The notes under the pieces were generated by a model, which was given only the letters and a program-made list of their open reading frames with translations, did no database searches and was not told the DNA's origin. The translations under genes were made by a program, and so were the position numbers. 64,000 nucleotides of DNA from Natronomonas pharaonis DSM 2160 (lineage in GTDB: Archaea > Halobacteriota > Halobacteria > Halobacteriales > Haloarculaceae). Positions 11,769 through 18,335 of the stretch are shown here, piece by piece; within the stretch, counting starts at the first letter, position 1; the number at the start of each line of letters is the position of its first letter. The stretch lies in NCBI RefSeq assembly GCF_000026045.1, contig NC_007426.1, positions 1,054,001-1,118,000 of the forward strand, written 5' to 3'.

Positions 11769-13192
11769 TATGCCTCCACCTCCGCTTTCGGGAGTTCACG
11801 CACGTCCGTTACCTCGCCGGTCACGGCCGCGGCGGCGACCATCTCGGGGCTCATCAGGACGGTACGGCCGTCCTTCGAGCCTTGCCGACCGACGAAGTTC
11901 CGGTTCGAAGAGGACGCACAGGCCTCATCGCCGACCAGCTGGTCGTCGTTCATCCCGAGACACATCGAACAGCCGGCCTCACGCCAGTCGAAGCCGGCCT
12001 CCTTGAACACCGAATCGAGGCCTTCGTCCTCGGCAGCGGCCTTGACGCGCTGGCTGCCGGGAACGACCATCGCGCGGACGGAGTCGTGGACCTCGCGGCC
12101 CTTGATAATCTCCGCCGCCGAGCGCAGGTCGGGCAGCCGGGCGTTCGTACAGGAGCCGAGGAAGGCGACATCGATGTTGTAGCCCGCCATCGTCTCGCCG
12201 GGCTCGACGCCCATGTGGTCCTGTGCCCGCCGGGCGGTATCCTGCTTGTCTGCCGGCAGGTCTTCGGGGGCCGGGATTTCCTCGGTGATACCGATGCCCT
12301 GTCCGGGCGTGGTGCCCCACGTGACGACCGGTTCGATTTCCGAGCCGTCGATGGTGACGACGTCGTCGTATTCGGCGTCGGGGTCGGACCGAACCGACTC
12401 CCAGTAGGGCTTTAGCTCCTCGAACCGCTCGGGGTCGTCCGCGAAGGCGTCGGTCTCGCGGAGCCACTCGTAGGTGGTCTCGTCGGGGTTGACATAGCCC
12501 GCACGAGCGCCGCCCTCGATGGACATGTTACAGATGGACATGCGTCCTTCCATGCCGAGGTTTTCGATGGCTTCGCCGGCGTACTCGTAGACGTAACCGA
12601 CCCCGCCGTCGGTGCCGAGCCGGCGGATGATGGTGAGGATGATGTCCTTGGCGGTGACGCCCTCGCCGAGTTCGCCGGTGACCTCGATTTTCCGGACGTC
12701 CTTTTTCTCCATGGCAATCGTCTGTGTCGCCAGCACGTCCCGAATCTGGGAGGTGCCGATGCCGAACGCCAGCGCGCCGAAGGCCCCGTGTGTCGAGGTG
12801 TGGCTGTCGCCACAGACGATGGTCTTGCCGGGCTGGGTAAGCCCCTGCTCCGGGCCGATGACGTGGACGATACCCTGGTTGCCGGTGGTGGGGTCGTCAA
12901 GCGTAATCCCGGCCTCGCGGACGTTTTCCTCCAGTTCCGCCATCATCTCTTCGGCGGCCTCGTTGTCGAGCGGCCGCGACTGGTCGGCCGTCGGCACGAT
13001 GTGGTCGACAGTCGCATGCGTCAGGTCCGGACGGGCGACCTCGATGTCGCGCTCCCGGAGCATCCCGAACGCCTGCGGGCTTGTGACCTCGTGGATGAGG
13101 TGGAGGCCGACAAACAGTTGGTCCTGTCCGTTCGGCAGGGTGGTCACCTTGTGGTTCTCCCAGACCTTGTCGTATAGCGTGCCCTCGCTCAT
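11768..13192 (-). CDS. leuC: 3-isopropylmalate dehydratase large subunit
   Basis: 474 residues, the bacterial-type length. Aconitase-superfamily subunit that carries the [4Fe-4S] cluster. [19 protein letters not shown] is the substrate-binding region. The cluster cysteines lie in [11 protein letters not shown] and [12 protein letters not shown]. It pairs with LeuD, encoded next in the operon. The ATG overlaps the stop codon of the 80-aa gene upstream by 4 bp (ATGA). The genuine leucine enzyme is supported by its position within leu/ilv genes rather than by sequence alone. Confidence 0.96.
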
Positions 13193-13431
13193 CGGTTCGT
13201 GCCACGGTCGTAGGCGCGCTGTGCGCCCTCGCTTCCTTCCGGCGGCGTGTGGCGTACGTCCGCCAGCGTCTCCGCGTCGGCGGCGTCGGCTGTGCCACCG
13301 TCGGCGGCGACGGTCTTTCCGCGGCTATACGTCTGTGTGTCGCCGAACACCCGCCCCGTATAGGGGTTGGTGTGGCTCATCTCGCCCAGCGTTTCGGCGT
13401 CGTCTGTCGTTGGTTCAGTGTTTTCTGTCAT
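13189..13431 (-). CDS. 80-residue protein of unknown function within the ilv/leu operon
   Basis: 80 residues from the ATG at 13431, 8 bp after the ilvC stop, and its stop overlaps leuC by 4 bp, so it is co-translated with the operon. The protein contains two copies of one motif, roughly DAETL-x4-HT-x-P-x2-G followed by a Tyr-x-Arg-Gly element: copy 1 at residues 11-38 (HTNPYTG, YSRG) and copy 2 at residues 52-77 (HTPPEG, YDRG). No enzyme fold or membrane segment is visible. I do not know a function. Its position suggests an accessory or regulatory partner of KARI or the dehydratase. Confidence 0.8.
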
Positions 13432-13439
13432 TGGTCTGT

Positions 13440-14435: not shown

Positions 14436-15064
14436 GTATGTTTCTCGTCAACACGTGCGGTCTCTTCAGCGCCGCGTGCCAGCGCGGCCTGGCCGGTTCT
14501 GGCGATTTCTCGGATATCGAACTGCTCGTAGGCGTCGATGGCGTCGTCGATTTTGCCTTCGTCGCCGGTTATCTGGACCGTGATGGTCTGTGGCCCGGCG
14601 TCCAACGTCTCGCCGTCGTACATCTCCGTGATAGCCTGTACCTTGTCCGGCTCGTCGCCGTCGACTTTCAGGATGACGAGTTCGCGTGCGACCGGGTCGT
14701 TGTCCAGTTCCCGAACGTGAACGACCGGCAGCACCTTCTGGAGCTGCTTTTTTATCTGGTCGATGCCGGGGTCCGGCTCCTCGACAACGAGGGTAATTCG
14801 AGAATACCCCTCGTTTTGCGTCGGGCCGACGGTCAGCGACTCGATGTTGAACTGCCGGCGGTGGAAGAGCCCGGACACCCGCGCGAGGACGCCCGGTTCG
14901 TTTTTCACGTACGCCGAGATGATGGTTCGCCGCGGTTCGTGTTCGGCTGCAACCTCGGGGTCGATGCGGATGCCCTGCTCGTTGCGCCGGCCGACTGGTC
15001 GCTGCCGCTCGCTGGGCTCCGGCCCCTCCAGCCCGTTGCGGCGTTCGTCCTGTCGGCGGCTCAT
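14432..15064 (-). CDS. ilvN: Acetolactate synthase small (regulatory) subunit
   Basis: 210 residues from the ATG at 15064, which overlaps the ilvB stop codon. A longer reading frame back to 15277 lies inside ilvB and is rejected. After a 45-residue charged N-terminal extension comes an ACT domain ([20 protein letters not shown], then [23 protein letters not shown]), followed by the usual C-terminal region. The subunit activates IlvB and should give feedback inhibition by valine. The N-terminal extension, rich in Arg, Glu and Gln, is longer than in bacterial IlvN/IlvH. Confidence 0.95.
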
Positions 15065-16806
15065 AGCTGGTCCTCCGAGAGGGCGAACAGTCCGTTGTCC
15101 CCGCCGCTCGGCACCATCGGGTAGACGTTCTCTTCGGGGTCGATGTGGACGTCGACAACCGACGGGCCGTCGTGGTCCAGCGACTCCTGAATCACGTCGT
15201 CGGCTTCCTCGTAGGTGTCGATGCGGAACCCGCGAGCGCCGAACGCCTCGGCGAGCGTGTCGAACTCCGGAATCCACGGGTATTCCGAGGCCATGTGGCG
15301 CTCACCGAAGAAGGCGTCTTGCCACTGGCGGACCATCCCGATAGCGGCGTTGTTCAGCACGACGAACGTGACATCGAGGTCCTCACGCACCGCGACCGAA
15401 AGCTCCTGGCACGTCATCAGGAAGGAGCCGTCGCCGTCGAAGCAGACGACATCCTTCTCGGGAGCGGCCAGTTTCGCGCCGATGGCCGCCGGCACGCCGT
15501 AGCCCATCGTCCCGAGGCCGTGGGAGGAAACCCACGTGCGGGGCTCCTTGTAGGTCCAGTACTGGCAGGCCCACATCTGGTGTTGGCCGACGCCGGTGGT
15601 GACGATGGTATCGTCGTCGGTAAACTCGTCGTAGCGCTCGACGACGTACTGCGGCTTGACCGGGTCGTCGCCGGGCGCGGCGTAATCCATTGGGTACTCG
15701 GTCTTCCATTCTTGGCACTGCTTTCGCCACTGGTCGGCGGCTGGCGACCGGTTCATCGCGGTCGCCAGCTGCTTTGTCACCGCCTTGGCGTCACCGATGA
15801 GCGGGTAGTCGGCCTCGACGTTCTTCGAGACTTCCGCGGGGTCGATTTCGACGTGGATGACCTCGGCATCGGGGGCGAATGACTCAAGCCCGCCGGTCAG
15901 CCGGTCGTCGAATCGCGTCCCGACCGCCAGCATGCAGTCGGTCATCGTGATGGCCATGTTGGCGTAGCCGGTCCCGTGCATCCCCGCCATCTCCAGCGAG
16001 AGCTCGTGGTCCTCGGGGAAGCAGCCGATGCCCGGCATCGTCGTCACGACCGGAATCTCGTGTTCGATTGCGAACTCCCGCAGTTCCTCGCTGGCTTCGG
16101 CTTTGATAACGCCGCCGCCGGCGAGGATGAGCGGTTTGTCGGCCGCAGCGAGTACATCGGCCGCCTCGGAAACGGCTTCGGGGTCGGCCGTCTCCGGCGG
16201 CTCGTAGGTGTCCGGAAGCTCCGGCGCGCCGGGGTCTTCGGTGGCGTCGCCCTTCGTGACATCCTTCGGCAGGTCGACAAGCGTCGGCCCCTGCCGGCCA
16301 CGATTTGCCAGCGCGAAGGCGGTTCCGACGTCCGTCCCGACCGCCTCCGAATCGTCGGCAAAGACGTTGGCTTTCGTTATCGGGCCGGTGACGCCGATGG
16401 TGTCGGTCTCCTGGAAGGCGTCGTTCCCGACGAAGTCGGTCGGCACCTGCCCGGTCAGCGCCAACATCGGGTCGGAGTCCATGTTGGCGTCGGCGATGCC
16501 GGTCACGAGGTTGGTCGCGCCCGGCCCCGAGGTCGCCATGCAGACGCCCGGCTCGCCGCTGACGATGCCGTAGGCGTCGGCAGCGTGGGCCGCCCCCTGC
16601 TCGTGTGCCATCGTGATGTGGCGCATCTCCGAGTGATAGAGGGCGTCGTAGACGGGCATGATGGCTCCGCCCTGCACGCCGAAGAGGTGTTCGACGCCGG
16701 CGTTTTCCAGCGCCCGCACGACCGCGTCGGCGCCGGTCTCGATGTCGTCAGCGCCGGCGGCTGTCTCCGTCTCTGCCTGTGGTTTGTGTGTCTGTTCGCC
16801 GCTCAT
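15061..16806 (-). CDS. ilvB: Acetolactate synthase large (catalytic) subunit
   Basis: 581 residues. ThDP-dependent enzyme making acetolactate or acetohydroxybutyrate, the first common step of valine and isoleucine synthesis. Signatures are the N-terminal HLFGVQGGAIMPVYDAL, the catalytic glutamate in HEQGAAHAADAYG, ATSGPGATNLVTG, and the ThDP motif GDGSFLMTCQEL with NNAAIGMVRQWQ. It starts the tight ilvBNC-x-leuCDB run. Upstream lie 313 bp containing a promoter, a 25-codon branched-chain-rich ORF and a hairpin, which suggests control by attenuation. Confidence 0.97.
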   Translation of the reverse strand: MSGEQTHKPQAETETAAGADDIETGADAVVRALENAGVEHLFGVQGGAIMPVYDALYHSEMRHITMAHEQGAAHAADAYGIVSGEPGVCMATSGPGATNLVTGIADANMDSDPMLALTGQVPTDFVGNDAFQETDTIGVTGPITKANVFADDSEAVGTDVGTAFALANRGRQGPTLVDLPKDVTKGDATEDPGAPELPDTYEPPETADPEAVSEAADVLAAADKPLILAGGGVIKAEASEELREFAIEHEIPVVTTMPGIGCFPEDHELSLEMAGMHGTGYANMAITMTDCMLAVGTRFDDRLTGGLESFAPDAEVIHVEIDPAEVSKNVEADYPLIGDAKAVTKQLATAMNRSPAADQWRKQCQEWKTEYPMDYAAPGDDPVKPQYVVERYDEFTDDDTIVTTGVGQHQMWACQYWTYKEPRTWVSSHGLGTMGYGVPAAIGAKLAAPEKDVVCFDGDGSFLMTCQELSVAVREDLDVTFVVLNNAAIGMVRQWQDAFFGERHMASEYPWIPEFDTLAEAFGARGFRIDTYEEADDVIQESLDHDGPSVVDVHIDPEENVYPMVPSGGDNGLFALSEDQL

Positions 16807-16913
16807 CGGGAACCACCCGTGCGATACCGTCGGTTGGTGTCTCGTGTGTACATTGTCCTGTCTGTGAAGCGTTCTGAAATCGGTGCGAACCGCGATTGGA
16901 AAAGTAGGTGATG

Positions 16914-16931
16914 AGGGGCTATACTGCCCCT
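16914..16931 (-). promoter_or_regulatory. GC hairpin overlapping the stop codon of the putative ilv leader ORF
   Basis: On the minus strand AGGGGC and GCCCCT form a 6-bp stem with a 6-base loop. The leader ORF's last codons and its TAG (16919-16921) lie in the stem-loop, so a ribosome near the end of the leader would melt it. Eleven nucleotides further on lies TTTT (16903-16900), then a smaller hairpin (arms CGGT and ACCG, 16881-16892). The arrangement resembles an attenuator, although the T-run is not adjacent to the stem. Confidence 0.5.
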
Positions 16932-16996
16932 ACAATACCGGCCGCGATGCTGGCCGTGACCGCGAGCGTCCGAACGCCAGCTATCGCGTCGGCCAT
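16919..16996 (-). CDS. Putative 25-residue branched-chain-rich leader peptide of the ilvB operon
   Basis: The ATG at 16996 opens 25 codons ending in TAG, beginning MADAIAGVRTLAV and ending IVGAV. Eight residues are branched-chain (4 Val, 3 Ile, 1 Leu) and most of the rest are Ala or Gly. The ATG lies about 3 nt after the start site predicted from the TATA box at 17022-17029, so it would be the first codon of a leaderless mRNA. ilvB follows 112 nt downstream of the stop. By analogy with ilv leaders in bacteria it could sense charged Ile, Val or Leu tRNA. The alternative is a tiny membrane peptide, or chance. Confidence 0.5.
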   Translation of the reverse strand: MADAIAGVRTLAVTASIAAGIVGAV

Positions 16997-17021
16997 GACA
17001 GTCGGCTATGCGTCGTCGACT

Positions 17022-17029
17022 ATCATAAA
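17022..17029 (-). promoter_or_regulatory. Predicted TATA box of the ilvB operon
   Basis: Minus-strand TTTATGAT, preceded by GGAATA, in an otherwise GC-rich stretch. Spacing of about 26 nt places the start site near 16999, three bases before the leader ATG at 16996. That leaves a transcribed leader of about 190 nt before ilvB. The leuA stop lies 90 bp upstream, so leuA can be transcribed separately. Confidence 0.55.
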
Positions 17030-17119
17030 TATTCCGCGTTGTTTCGCCCGGTGTCGCGGCTGGCCGCATGCCGTGTACCGGCCGCTGTTCCGGGGGGCAG
17101 GCGTCCGCAGCGGGCATCC

Positions 17120-18331
17120 CTAGATGCGAACCTCCTCGCGCTCGATGCCCACCTCGCGGGCGAACTCCTTGAGCCGCTCGAAGGTGACCTGCTCTTTCTG
17201 TGCGCCGTGGTCTTTGACCATGCGGGTCACCTCGCGGACCTCCGCGTCACTCGGCTTGAAACCGGCGTCTTCCAGCCGCTCGCGAACCGAGTGGGTGCCG
17301 GTGTGTTTGCCCAACACCAGCTCGCGGGTCGCACCGACCATCTCGGGCGTCATGACGCCGGGTTCGAAGGTGTCGGCGTTCTCGATGACGCCGGCGGCGT
17401 GGATGCCCGATTCGTGGGAGAAGGCGTTGTTCCCCACCACGGGCTTGTTCGCCGGCACCGGGATGTCGCTTTTCTCCTCGACGACGCGGGCCAGTTCTGT
17501 GATGCGTTCGGTCTTGATGCCCGTGTCGACATCGTACAGCGACTCCAGCGCCATGACGACCTCTTCGTAGGCCGCGTTGCCGGCGCGTTCGCCGATACCG
17601 TTGACCGACACCTGCGCCTGTGCGGCGCCCGCTTCGTAGCCGGACAGGGCGTTGGCCGCTGCCAGCCCGAAGTCGTCGTGGGTGTGGACGTCGACGTTGG
17701 CGTCCGTATGCGAAACGACGGTCTCGACCATATCGTAGAACCGCCGGGGCGTCGCGACCCCACAGGTGTCGGGAATGTTTATCCAGTCCGTCCCGGCATC
17801 GGAGACGGCCTCGATGACGTCGATCAGGAACGATTCATCCGTCCGCGTCGCGTCCATCGGCGAGTACATGCAGGTTACGCCGGCGTCTTTGACGCGCTCG
17901 ACGGCCTCTACGGAGCGTTCGAGCGCCTCTTGACGAGTAGCGTGCATCGAATCCTGCAGCTGAACGTCGCTGGTAGACGCGAACACGTGTACCATCTCGA
18001 CGCCGGAGTCCAACGCGGCGTCGATGTCCTTCTCTACGACGCGGGCAAGCCCGCACACCGTAGAGGATGTCGCGTCGGCGATGTCCTGTACGGCCTCGAA
18101 CTCCGCCTCGGAGTTCACCGGGAAGCCGGCCTCGATGACATGGGTGCCCATGTCGTCGAGGATAGCCGCTATCTCGCGTTTGTCCTCGTAGCTGAACGAG
18201 GTTCGCGGGGACTGTTCGCCGTCGCGCAGGGTCGTATCGAAAATCCGGGCCTCACTTATCTCTGAGGTACTATCTAGAGTGCCCTGGAAGAACTCGATCC
18301 GCCGCCGAAGGCGACGTATCCTCGTGCTGTG
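17120..18331 (-). CDS. leuA: 2-isopropylmalate synthase family protein (short form) with an unclear start
   Basis: The open frame from 18331 to the stop at 17120 gives up to 403 residues. Acetyl-CoA plus 2-oxoisovalerate gives 2-isopropylmalate. The catalytic N-terminus RIFDTTLRDGEQSPRTSFS, the metal ligands in HTHDDFGLAAANAL and the NGIGERAGNAA motif are all present. The first ATG in this frame is at 18151, after the catalytic TLRDGEQ motif, and there is no ATG, GTG or TTG between it and an in-frame TGA at 18334-18332. FFQGTL-type N-terminal sequence is coded further upstream. So the gene uses a rare start, frameshifts from the ATG at 18335, or is damaged. The C-terminal leucine-sensing domain of long LeuA proteins is absent. 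Citramalate synthase activity is an alternative. Confidence 0.85.
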   Translation of the reverse strand, partial: HSTRIRRLRRRIEFFQGTLDSTSEISEARIFDTTLRDGEQSPRTSFSYEDKREIAAILDDMGTHVIEAGFPVNSEAEFEAVQDIADATSSTVCGLARVVEKDIDAALDSGVEMVHVFASTSDVQLQDSMHATRQEALERSVEAVERVKDAGVTCMYSPMDATRTDESFLIDVIEAVSDAGTDWINIPDTCGVATPRRFYDMVETVVSHTDANVDVHTHDDFGLAAANALSGYEAGAAQAQVSVNGIGERAGNAAYEEVVMALESLYDVDTGIKTERITELARVVEEKSDIPVPANKPVVGNNAFSHESGIHAAGVIENADTFEPGVMTPEMVGATRELVLGKHTGTHSVRERLEDAGFKPSDAEVREVTRMVKDHGAQKEQVTFERLKEFAREVGIEREEVRI

Positions 18332-18335
18332 TCAT
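18270..18335 (-). CDS. Out-of-frame 21-codon ORF at the 5' end of the leuA transcript
   Basis: The ATG at 18335 is positioned for leaderless initiation from the TATA box at 18362-18369. It opens a 21-codon frame starting MTQHEDTSPSAADRVL and ending at TAG (18272-18270). The frame overlaps the first 60 nt of the leuA coding frame and is offset by one base. It has only one Val and one Leu, so it is not a classic branched-chain leader. It may be the true leuA start followed by a +1 shift, the result of a one-base change, or a regulatory uORF. Confidence 0.4.
   Translation of the reverse strand: MTQHEDTSPSAADRVLPGHSR

Follow-up and report, generated by a model that had tools for sequence, protein, structure and literature searches.

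The leuA-ilvB gap of Natronomonas pharaonis DSM 2160 carries a leader ahead of the ilvB operon, and the fixed elements of this leader, which is kept across the class Halobacteria, are a terminal branched-chain codon, the rare valine codon GTA and a GC hairpin. Its short, leaderless open reading frame, uORF1, is probably translated and carries putative regulatory codons for branched-chain amino acids as well as a hairpin around the stop codon; ribosome-mediated control of ilvB is likely. It is proposed here, with somewhat more confidence than doubt, that this translated, attenuator-like leader ties expression of the ilvB operon to the decoding of valine and isoleucine codons.

Organization of the locus

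The minus strand of the window (the whole stretch of 64,000 nt that was analyzed) has leuA, a gap of 313 nt, ilvB, ilvN, ilvC, a small ORF, leuC, leuD and leuB, in this order. The features of the gap and of its two flanking genes are as follows:

17120..18290, minus strand: leuA frame (2-isopropylmalate/citramalate synthase type), with the Pfam domains HMGL-like and HCS_D2 and without LeuA_dimer; it has no in-frame start codon (no in-frame ATG/GTG before DTTLRDGE)
16803..17117, minus strand: orfX, 104 codons, a bridge from leuA to ilvB in frame -1 relative to uORF1, with a TGA that overlaps the ilvB ATG (ATGA)
17022..17029, minus strand: TATA box of the internal promoter within the gap, TTTATGAT
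16919..16996, minus strand: uORF1, 25 codons plus TAG, predicted to be leaderless, MADAIAGVRTLAVTASIAAGIVGAV followed by the stop
16931..16936, minus strand: ATT GTA (Ile-Val), putative control codons in the terminal part of uORF1
16914..16931, minus strand: GC hairpin AGGGGC-AGTATA-GCCCCT, with the uORF1 stop at the end of the loop
16894..16913, minus strand: C/U/A-rich, G-poor tract directly 3' of the hairpin, a possible termination-factor or ribosome-free landing zone
16803..16853, minus strand: uORF2, the segment of orfX that begins with the last ATG of this frame, MYTRDTNRRYRTGGSR followed by the stop
15061..16806, minus strand: ilvB, acetolactate synthase large subunit, with TPP-enzyme Pfam domains, the first gene under the leader

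The small ORF between ilvC and leuC (13189-13438, minus strand) is acidic. A second leader of the uORF1-hairpin type (MRQLDTDSHTAPASGGAVGARLIVGV and a stop) was found in genome G138 (L138/L105), where it precedes a small ORF resembling this small protein of the window.

Internal promoter and uORF1

The internal promoter has the pattern gGAAnnnTTAT, with TTAT exactly at -32 relative to the uORF1 ATG in 73/89 genomes. With this fixed spacing, transcription is predicted to begin no more than a few bases from the uORF1 ATG and to give a leaderless mRNA. A TATA box together with the ATG and a stop in frame was present in 25/25 further ilvB loci, an independent set from which one palindrome-derived artefact on the reverse strand was excluded; the reference genomes are related by descent, and neither this count nor those over 90 genomes given below are numbers of independent events.

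In the window, uORF1 extends from the ATG at 16996 to the TAG at 16921-16919 and has 4 Val, 3 Ile and 1 Leu codons; the TATA box, the start and the 25-codon ORF are all in the sequence as the original prediction had described them. The stop codon varies among genomes (TAG, TAA or TGA), always in frame, and in nearly all of them it lies no more than 27 nt from GTA. The body of uORF1 is unconserved, with a flat divergence of about 0.17 at each of the three codon positions compared with 0.093/0.039/0.327 in ilvB, and purifying selection on the uORF1 peptide, which had been named beforehand as a check, was not seen by codon-position divergence. The Val/Ile richness of uORF1 is therefore incidental, and the flat divergence speaks against a functional peptide; it was not counted against a leader role because only the end codons are fixed.

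Distribution of the leader

Used as a DNA query, the leader was located in 19/20 Natronomonas genomes, and the alignment of this genus keeps the TATA box, the uORF1 start, its end (..IVGA(V)-stop), the hairpin and the stretch just before ilvB. Among 80 haloarchaeal ilvB loci from many genera, the uORF was found in nearly all of those that include the upstream region; as a rule it has about 17-32 codons, and its consensus end is ATT GTA GGG GCN (NNN) stop CCCC, corresponding to (I)-Ile-Val-Gly-Ala-(x)-stop. In the pattern search, the leader motif was present in 278/292 Halobacteria genomes (71/77 genera); the reversed pattern, used as a control, gave few matches. Conservation of the ORF, on which the original prediction had staked itself, is thus borne out in the genus and in the class.

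All 14 genomes missed by the pattern carry ilvB, and nine of them have a variant leader in which GTA is always kept and Ile is replaced in some by Val or Leu (VVGAR, VVVGAV, LVGAL, VVVGAA). The stem of one variant (L145) is changed in a compensatory manner to GGGCC/GGCCC. The remaining five include three deep-branching genomes without the leader, a truncated one and one with a different leader (G139, L150). In the wider phylum outside Halobacteria, the pattern gives scattered matches at what appears to be background level; a single one with an in-frame stop was read (G305), and it is the hairpin-plus-T-run terminator of another gene. In Halobacteria, a short leader ORF is evolutionarily kept between a promoter and a biosynthetic operon, ahead of the common Ile/Val pathway gene.

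Control codons

In the window, uORF1 ends with Ile-Val(GTA)-Gly-Ala-Val-stop inside the GC hairpin. GTA is kept in every genome in which the leader was found; the in-frame pattern of the class search sets GTA (or GTG) beforehand, and the invariance is drawn from the nine variants outside the strict pattern, which were read free of this constraint. The codon before GTA is Ile, or else Val, Leu or Met (Met in L097). In ten genes of the window, GTA makes up 4.5% of the valine codons and ATT 17% of the isoleucine codons. The leader has terminal codons for end-product amino acids (Ile/Val/Leu plus the fixed GTA), though few of them: the original prediction held that the many Val/Ile codons mattered, and only the last one or two are kept, with GTA fixed.

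Hairpin and downstream tract

The hairpin around the stop codon has a perfect stem of 6 bp in the window and forms in 123/123 sequences; 112 of them have the stop within the hairpin, and 11 have it a short distance further on. The loop measures between 3 and 7 nt across these sequences, which fits an RNA hairpin better than a fixed DNA operator with constant half-site spacing. The region 16900-16936 folds better than shuffled sequences (z -2.95), and 16807-16913, where a second small hairpin before ilvB had been predicted, folds worse than shuffles (z +1.5). A TTTT lies about 11 nt past the stem in the window; a T-run or U-tract after the hairpin is not conserved across the genomes compared, and an intrinsic terminator at this position was rejected. 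The RNA directly after the hairpin is poor in G, which across genomes makes up 6% of the 10 nt nearest to the stem and 13% of the 10 nt that follow. Of the attenuation-like leader as originally conceived, the conserved short ORF, the branched-chain end codons and the hairpin at the stop have held up, the latter being perfect, better than shuffles and kept class-wide; the T-run terminator and the second hairpin have not.

No alternative antiterminator fold was conserved in Natronomonas (RNAalifold covariation about 0), and the classical three-hairpin scheme is thus not supported. RNAalifold also proposed that the end of uORF1 pairs over a long range with the CGGTATCG motif close to ilvB, but this pairing was without covariation. 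Known RNA families (T-box, riboswitch, curated leaders) were rejected, as 16700-17200 had no Rfam match at E<=1.

A second reading frame across the gap

The original prediction had overlooked that the whole leuA-ilvB gap is also open as orfX, whose end overlaps the ilvB start. The orfX frame is open in 89/90 genomes, with 1 stop in 10,230 codons compared with 211 expected from a Markov model, and the other two frames of the gap have 241 and 375 stops across the same 90 genomes. In about 86/90 genomes the orfX ATG follows the leuA stop at a distance of -1 to +4 nt, and the overlap of the orfX TGA with the ilvB start (ATGA/GTGA) is found in 78/90, several others having a distance of -8 or -1. 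Overlaps and short spacings of this kind are typical of translational coupling (PMC12548453). The sole exception to the open frame is L088 (Natronomonas sp. CBA1123, a draft), where an extra C in a C-run, which is probably an assembly error, disrupts both uORF1 and orfX.

Divergence in orfX is flat over the codon positions (about 0.17 each), the peptide is unconstrained, and no Pfam or NCBIfam match was found, so that orfX was rejected as a real protein for lack of both a family match and codon-level selection. From this pattern, orfX appears to be kept open for being translated and not for its product. Its 3' part, uORF2, is strongly conserved in Natronomonas and positioned for coupling to ilvB; the NRRYR motif of uORF2 was seen in this genus and not generally elsewhere. 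Frameshifting between the frames was also considered and rejected: there is no canonical -1 slip site for a shift from uORF1 into orfX or ilvB, and the +1 frame from uORF1 to ilvB is closed in many genomes.

The leuA start and the LeuA_dimer domain

A further short ORF is located at the other end of leuA:

18270..18335, minus strand: leaderless 21-codon ORF at the leuA start, MTQHEDTSPSAADRVLPGHSR followed by the stop, with a candidate +1 shift site GTT CTT C at 18293-18287

Most of the 88 haloarchaea compared lack an ATG/GTG in the leuA frame shortly upstream of the catalytic DTTLRDGE motif. A leaderless ATG behind the leuA TATA box opens an ORF of 17-25 codons (..DRVLPGH..stop) in another frame, and leuA resumes in +1 after an almost invariant CGA GTT CTT C. 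The site GTTCTTC[AC][AG]GG and its phase are present in 81/88 genomes, and divergence is nearly flat upstream of the site and follows the leuA frame downstream. This makes a class-wide +1 programmed frameshift at Val-Leu codons near the leuA start a candidate, of which no report was found in the literature.

The genome with a different leader (L150) has ilvB preceded by a leuA-type leader ORF (MPHIEGTSVVPADRVLPRAA and a stop) with leuA not directly after it, and the stop of this ORF sits in a hairpin (GAGCCG-CCTGA-CGGCTC). From this arrangement, the leuA 5' ORF may be able to serve as a leader alone. The three deep-branching genomes (L152-L154; G040, G299 and G233) have a longer LeuA, with leuA near ilvB and no leader. 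LeuA of L154 contains the allosteric leucine-sensing LeuA_dimer domain (PF08502, E=1.7e-30), which the window LeuA lacks, and leader-bearing lineages appear to have lost this domain, the Pfam check on their side covering the window LeuA.

Proposed mechanism and alternative explanations

In the proposed mechanism, the internal promoter would give a leaderless mRNA that opens directly with the uORF1 start codon, and a ribosome on uORF1 would meet Ile/Val codons ending in the rare GTA just ahead of the stop-bearing hairpin. With ample charged Val-/Ile-tRNA, the ribosome would finish and depart, the hairpin would close and the G-poor, ribosome-free RNA past it would lead to an early stop of RNA polymerase, most likely via FttA/aCPSF1. 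When Val or Ile is scarce, a stalled ribosome would occupy the 5' arm, no hairpin would form and transcription would continue into ilvB. Ribosomes on mRNA started at leuA would read orfX across the hairpin as far as the ATGA overlap and would thereby evade the switch, the frame and the overlap underlying this step being directly visible in the sequence. FttA/aCPSF1 is favored as the terminator because no U-tract is conserved, and its involvement is inferred from general archaeal biology (PMC12548453, PMC8448881). Part of the hairpin would be occupied whether the ribosome sits on the Ile/Val codons or on the stop, and the anatomy therefore leaves the direction of control unfixed.

A more complete version can be offered only tentatively: a class-wide archaeal attenuator with one RNA used in two frames, where ribosomes from the internal promoter would test Val/Ile at GTA before the stop-in-hairpin, leading to FttA termination, and leuA-derived ribosomes on orfX would override it. 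Such an attenuator would replace the lost leucine-feedback domain of LeuA and may pair with the +1 frameshift at the leuA Val-Leu codons.

The main rival is a purely translational version with reinitiation at ilvB, possible though short of probable, in which the place of the ribosome on uORF1 and the hairpin would set access or reinitiation at the orfX/uORF2 start and hence at ilvB through the ATGA coupling, without early termination. The ATGA/GTGA overlap in most genomes, the conserved ATG near ilvB in Natronomonas, the unconserved U-tract and the documented termination-reinitiation in Haloferax (PMC12548453) all agree with it; the last orfX ATG, however, is missing or elsewhere in several genomes, and no conserved structure sequesters the ilvB start. 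The inverted repeat could also make the palindrome GTAGGGGC..GCCCCTAC a target, in DNA or RNA, of a regulatory protein, with the uORF as a by-product of the internal promoter, and nucleotide conservation of TTGTAGGGG does exceed that of the peptide. This is unlikely, as the loop of 3-7 nt differs from a fixed dimer operator, the in-frame stop is kept through three stop types, and GTA is kept where the stem becomes GGGCC/GGCCC or CGGGCC.

Conservation limited to the residues next to the stop codon would also suit a nascent-peptide sensor, where a C-terminal (I/V/L)-V-G-A/V would stall the ribosome on a free branched-chain amino acid, like TnaC; however, the codon GTA itself is fixed, beyond valine, and no upstream tunnel residues are conserved, making this quite improbable. 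That uORF1 is a functional micropeptide, or orfX a functional protein, would explain the long-term maintenance of both frames and is very improbable given the flat codon-position divergence in both, compared with ilvB, and the lack of a family match for orfX. Nothing beyond the single sequence would speak for a chance ORF and hairpin in a GC-rich gap, a reading refuted by the class-wide conservation and retained with practically no weight. The translated, attenuator-like leader stays the favored reading.

Comparison with known systems

Ribosome-mediated attenuation is a textbook form of bacterial control, and the E. coli ilvL/ivbL attenuators have a leader ORF rich in Ile/Val/Leu with many tandem control codons and an intrinsic terminator. 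The haloarchaeal leader shares with them the branched-chain leader ORF before the same pathway genes; however, it has only one or two control codons. In the Rho-dependent tnaC/mgtL type, the position of the ribosome on a short ORF decides the access of the factor to unstructured RNA, and a factor-dependent logic of this kind fits the G-poor tract past the haloarchaeal hairpin. To our knowledge archaea have no Rho, and by analogy FttA/aCPSF1 would take its part in the haloarchaeal leader.

The nearest described relative in logic is the ilvBNC attenuator of Corynebacterium glutamicum, which has the leader peptide MTIIRLVVVTARRLP and the control codons CUU and GUA (PMC11857589). Both have a short branched-chain-codon leader ORF (before ilvBNC in C. 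glutamicum), a GUA codon, fixed in haloarchaea, and a GC-rich hairpin. However, C. glutamicum has three overlapping hairpins (terminator, antiterminator and anti-antiterminator), whereas the haloarchaeal leader has one, which encloses the stop codon, and has no conserved alternative fold or U-tract, a predicted leaderless mRNA and the overlapping bridge frame from leuA. The two belong to different domains of life, with no sign of homology.

The haloarchaeal leader is not a leader-peptide attenuator in the strict sense, because a mutually exclusive terminator/antiterminator pair was looked for and not found: one hairpin only is conserved, and in place of an intrinsic terminator with a U-tract there is the unconserved TTTT. 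Among haloarchaea, the available part of a report on Haloferax volcanii describes 16 uORF cases in long 5'-UTRs, including pheS and trpS (PMC4983044), which share with the present leader short ORFs before amino-acid-related genes in a haloarchaeon; in that part, the list is without ilvB and no attenuation mechanism is proposed. The main texts of the literature searched had no TSS or ribosome data on Haloferax ilvB.

Implications

According to PMC8448881, which shows aCPSF1 near promoters, no target of archaeal transcription control other than recruitment was known. No archaeal attenuator was found in the open-access literature, a scope that leaves many subscription journals outside. If the proposal is true, archaea too control amino-acid operons by ribosome position. 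The leader would make two questions testable in genetically tractable halophiles, namely whether the coupling of transcription to translation in archaea is tight enough to allow attenuation and whether FttA takes on the work of Rho. The two-frame design of uORF1 and orfX, if true, would be a new way for one attenuator to depend on which promoter has fired.
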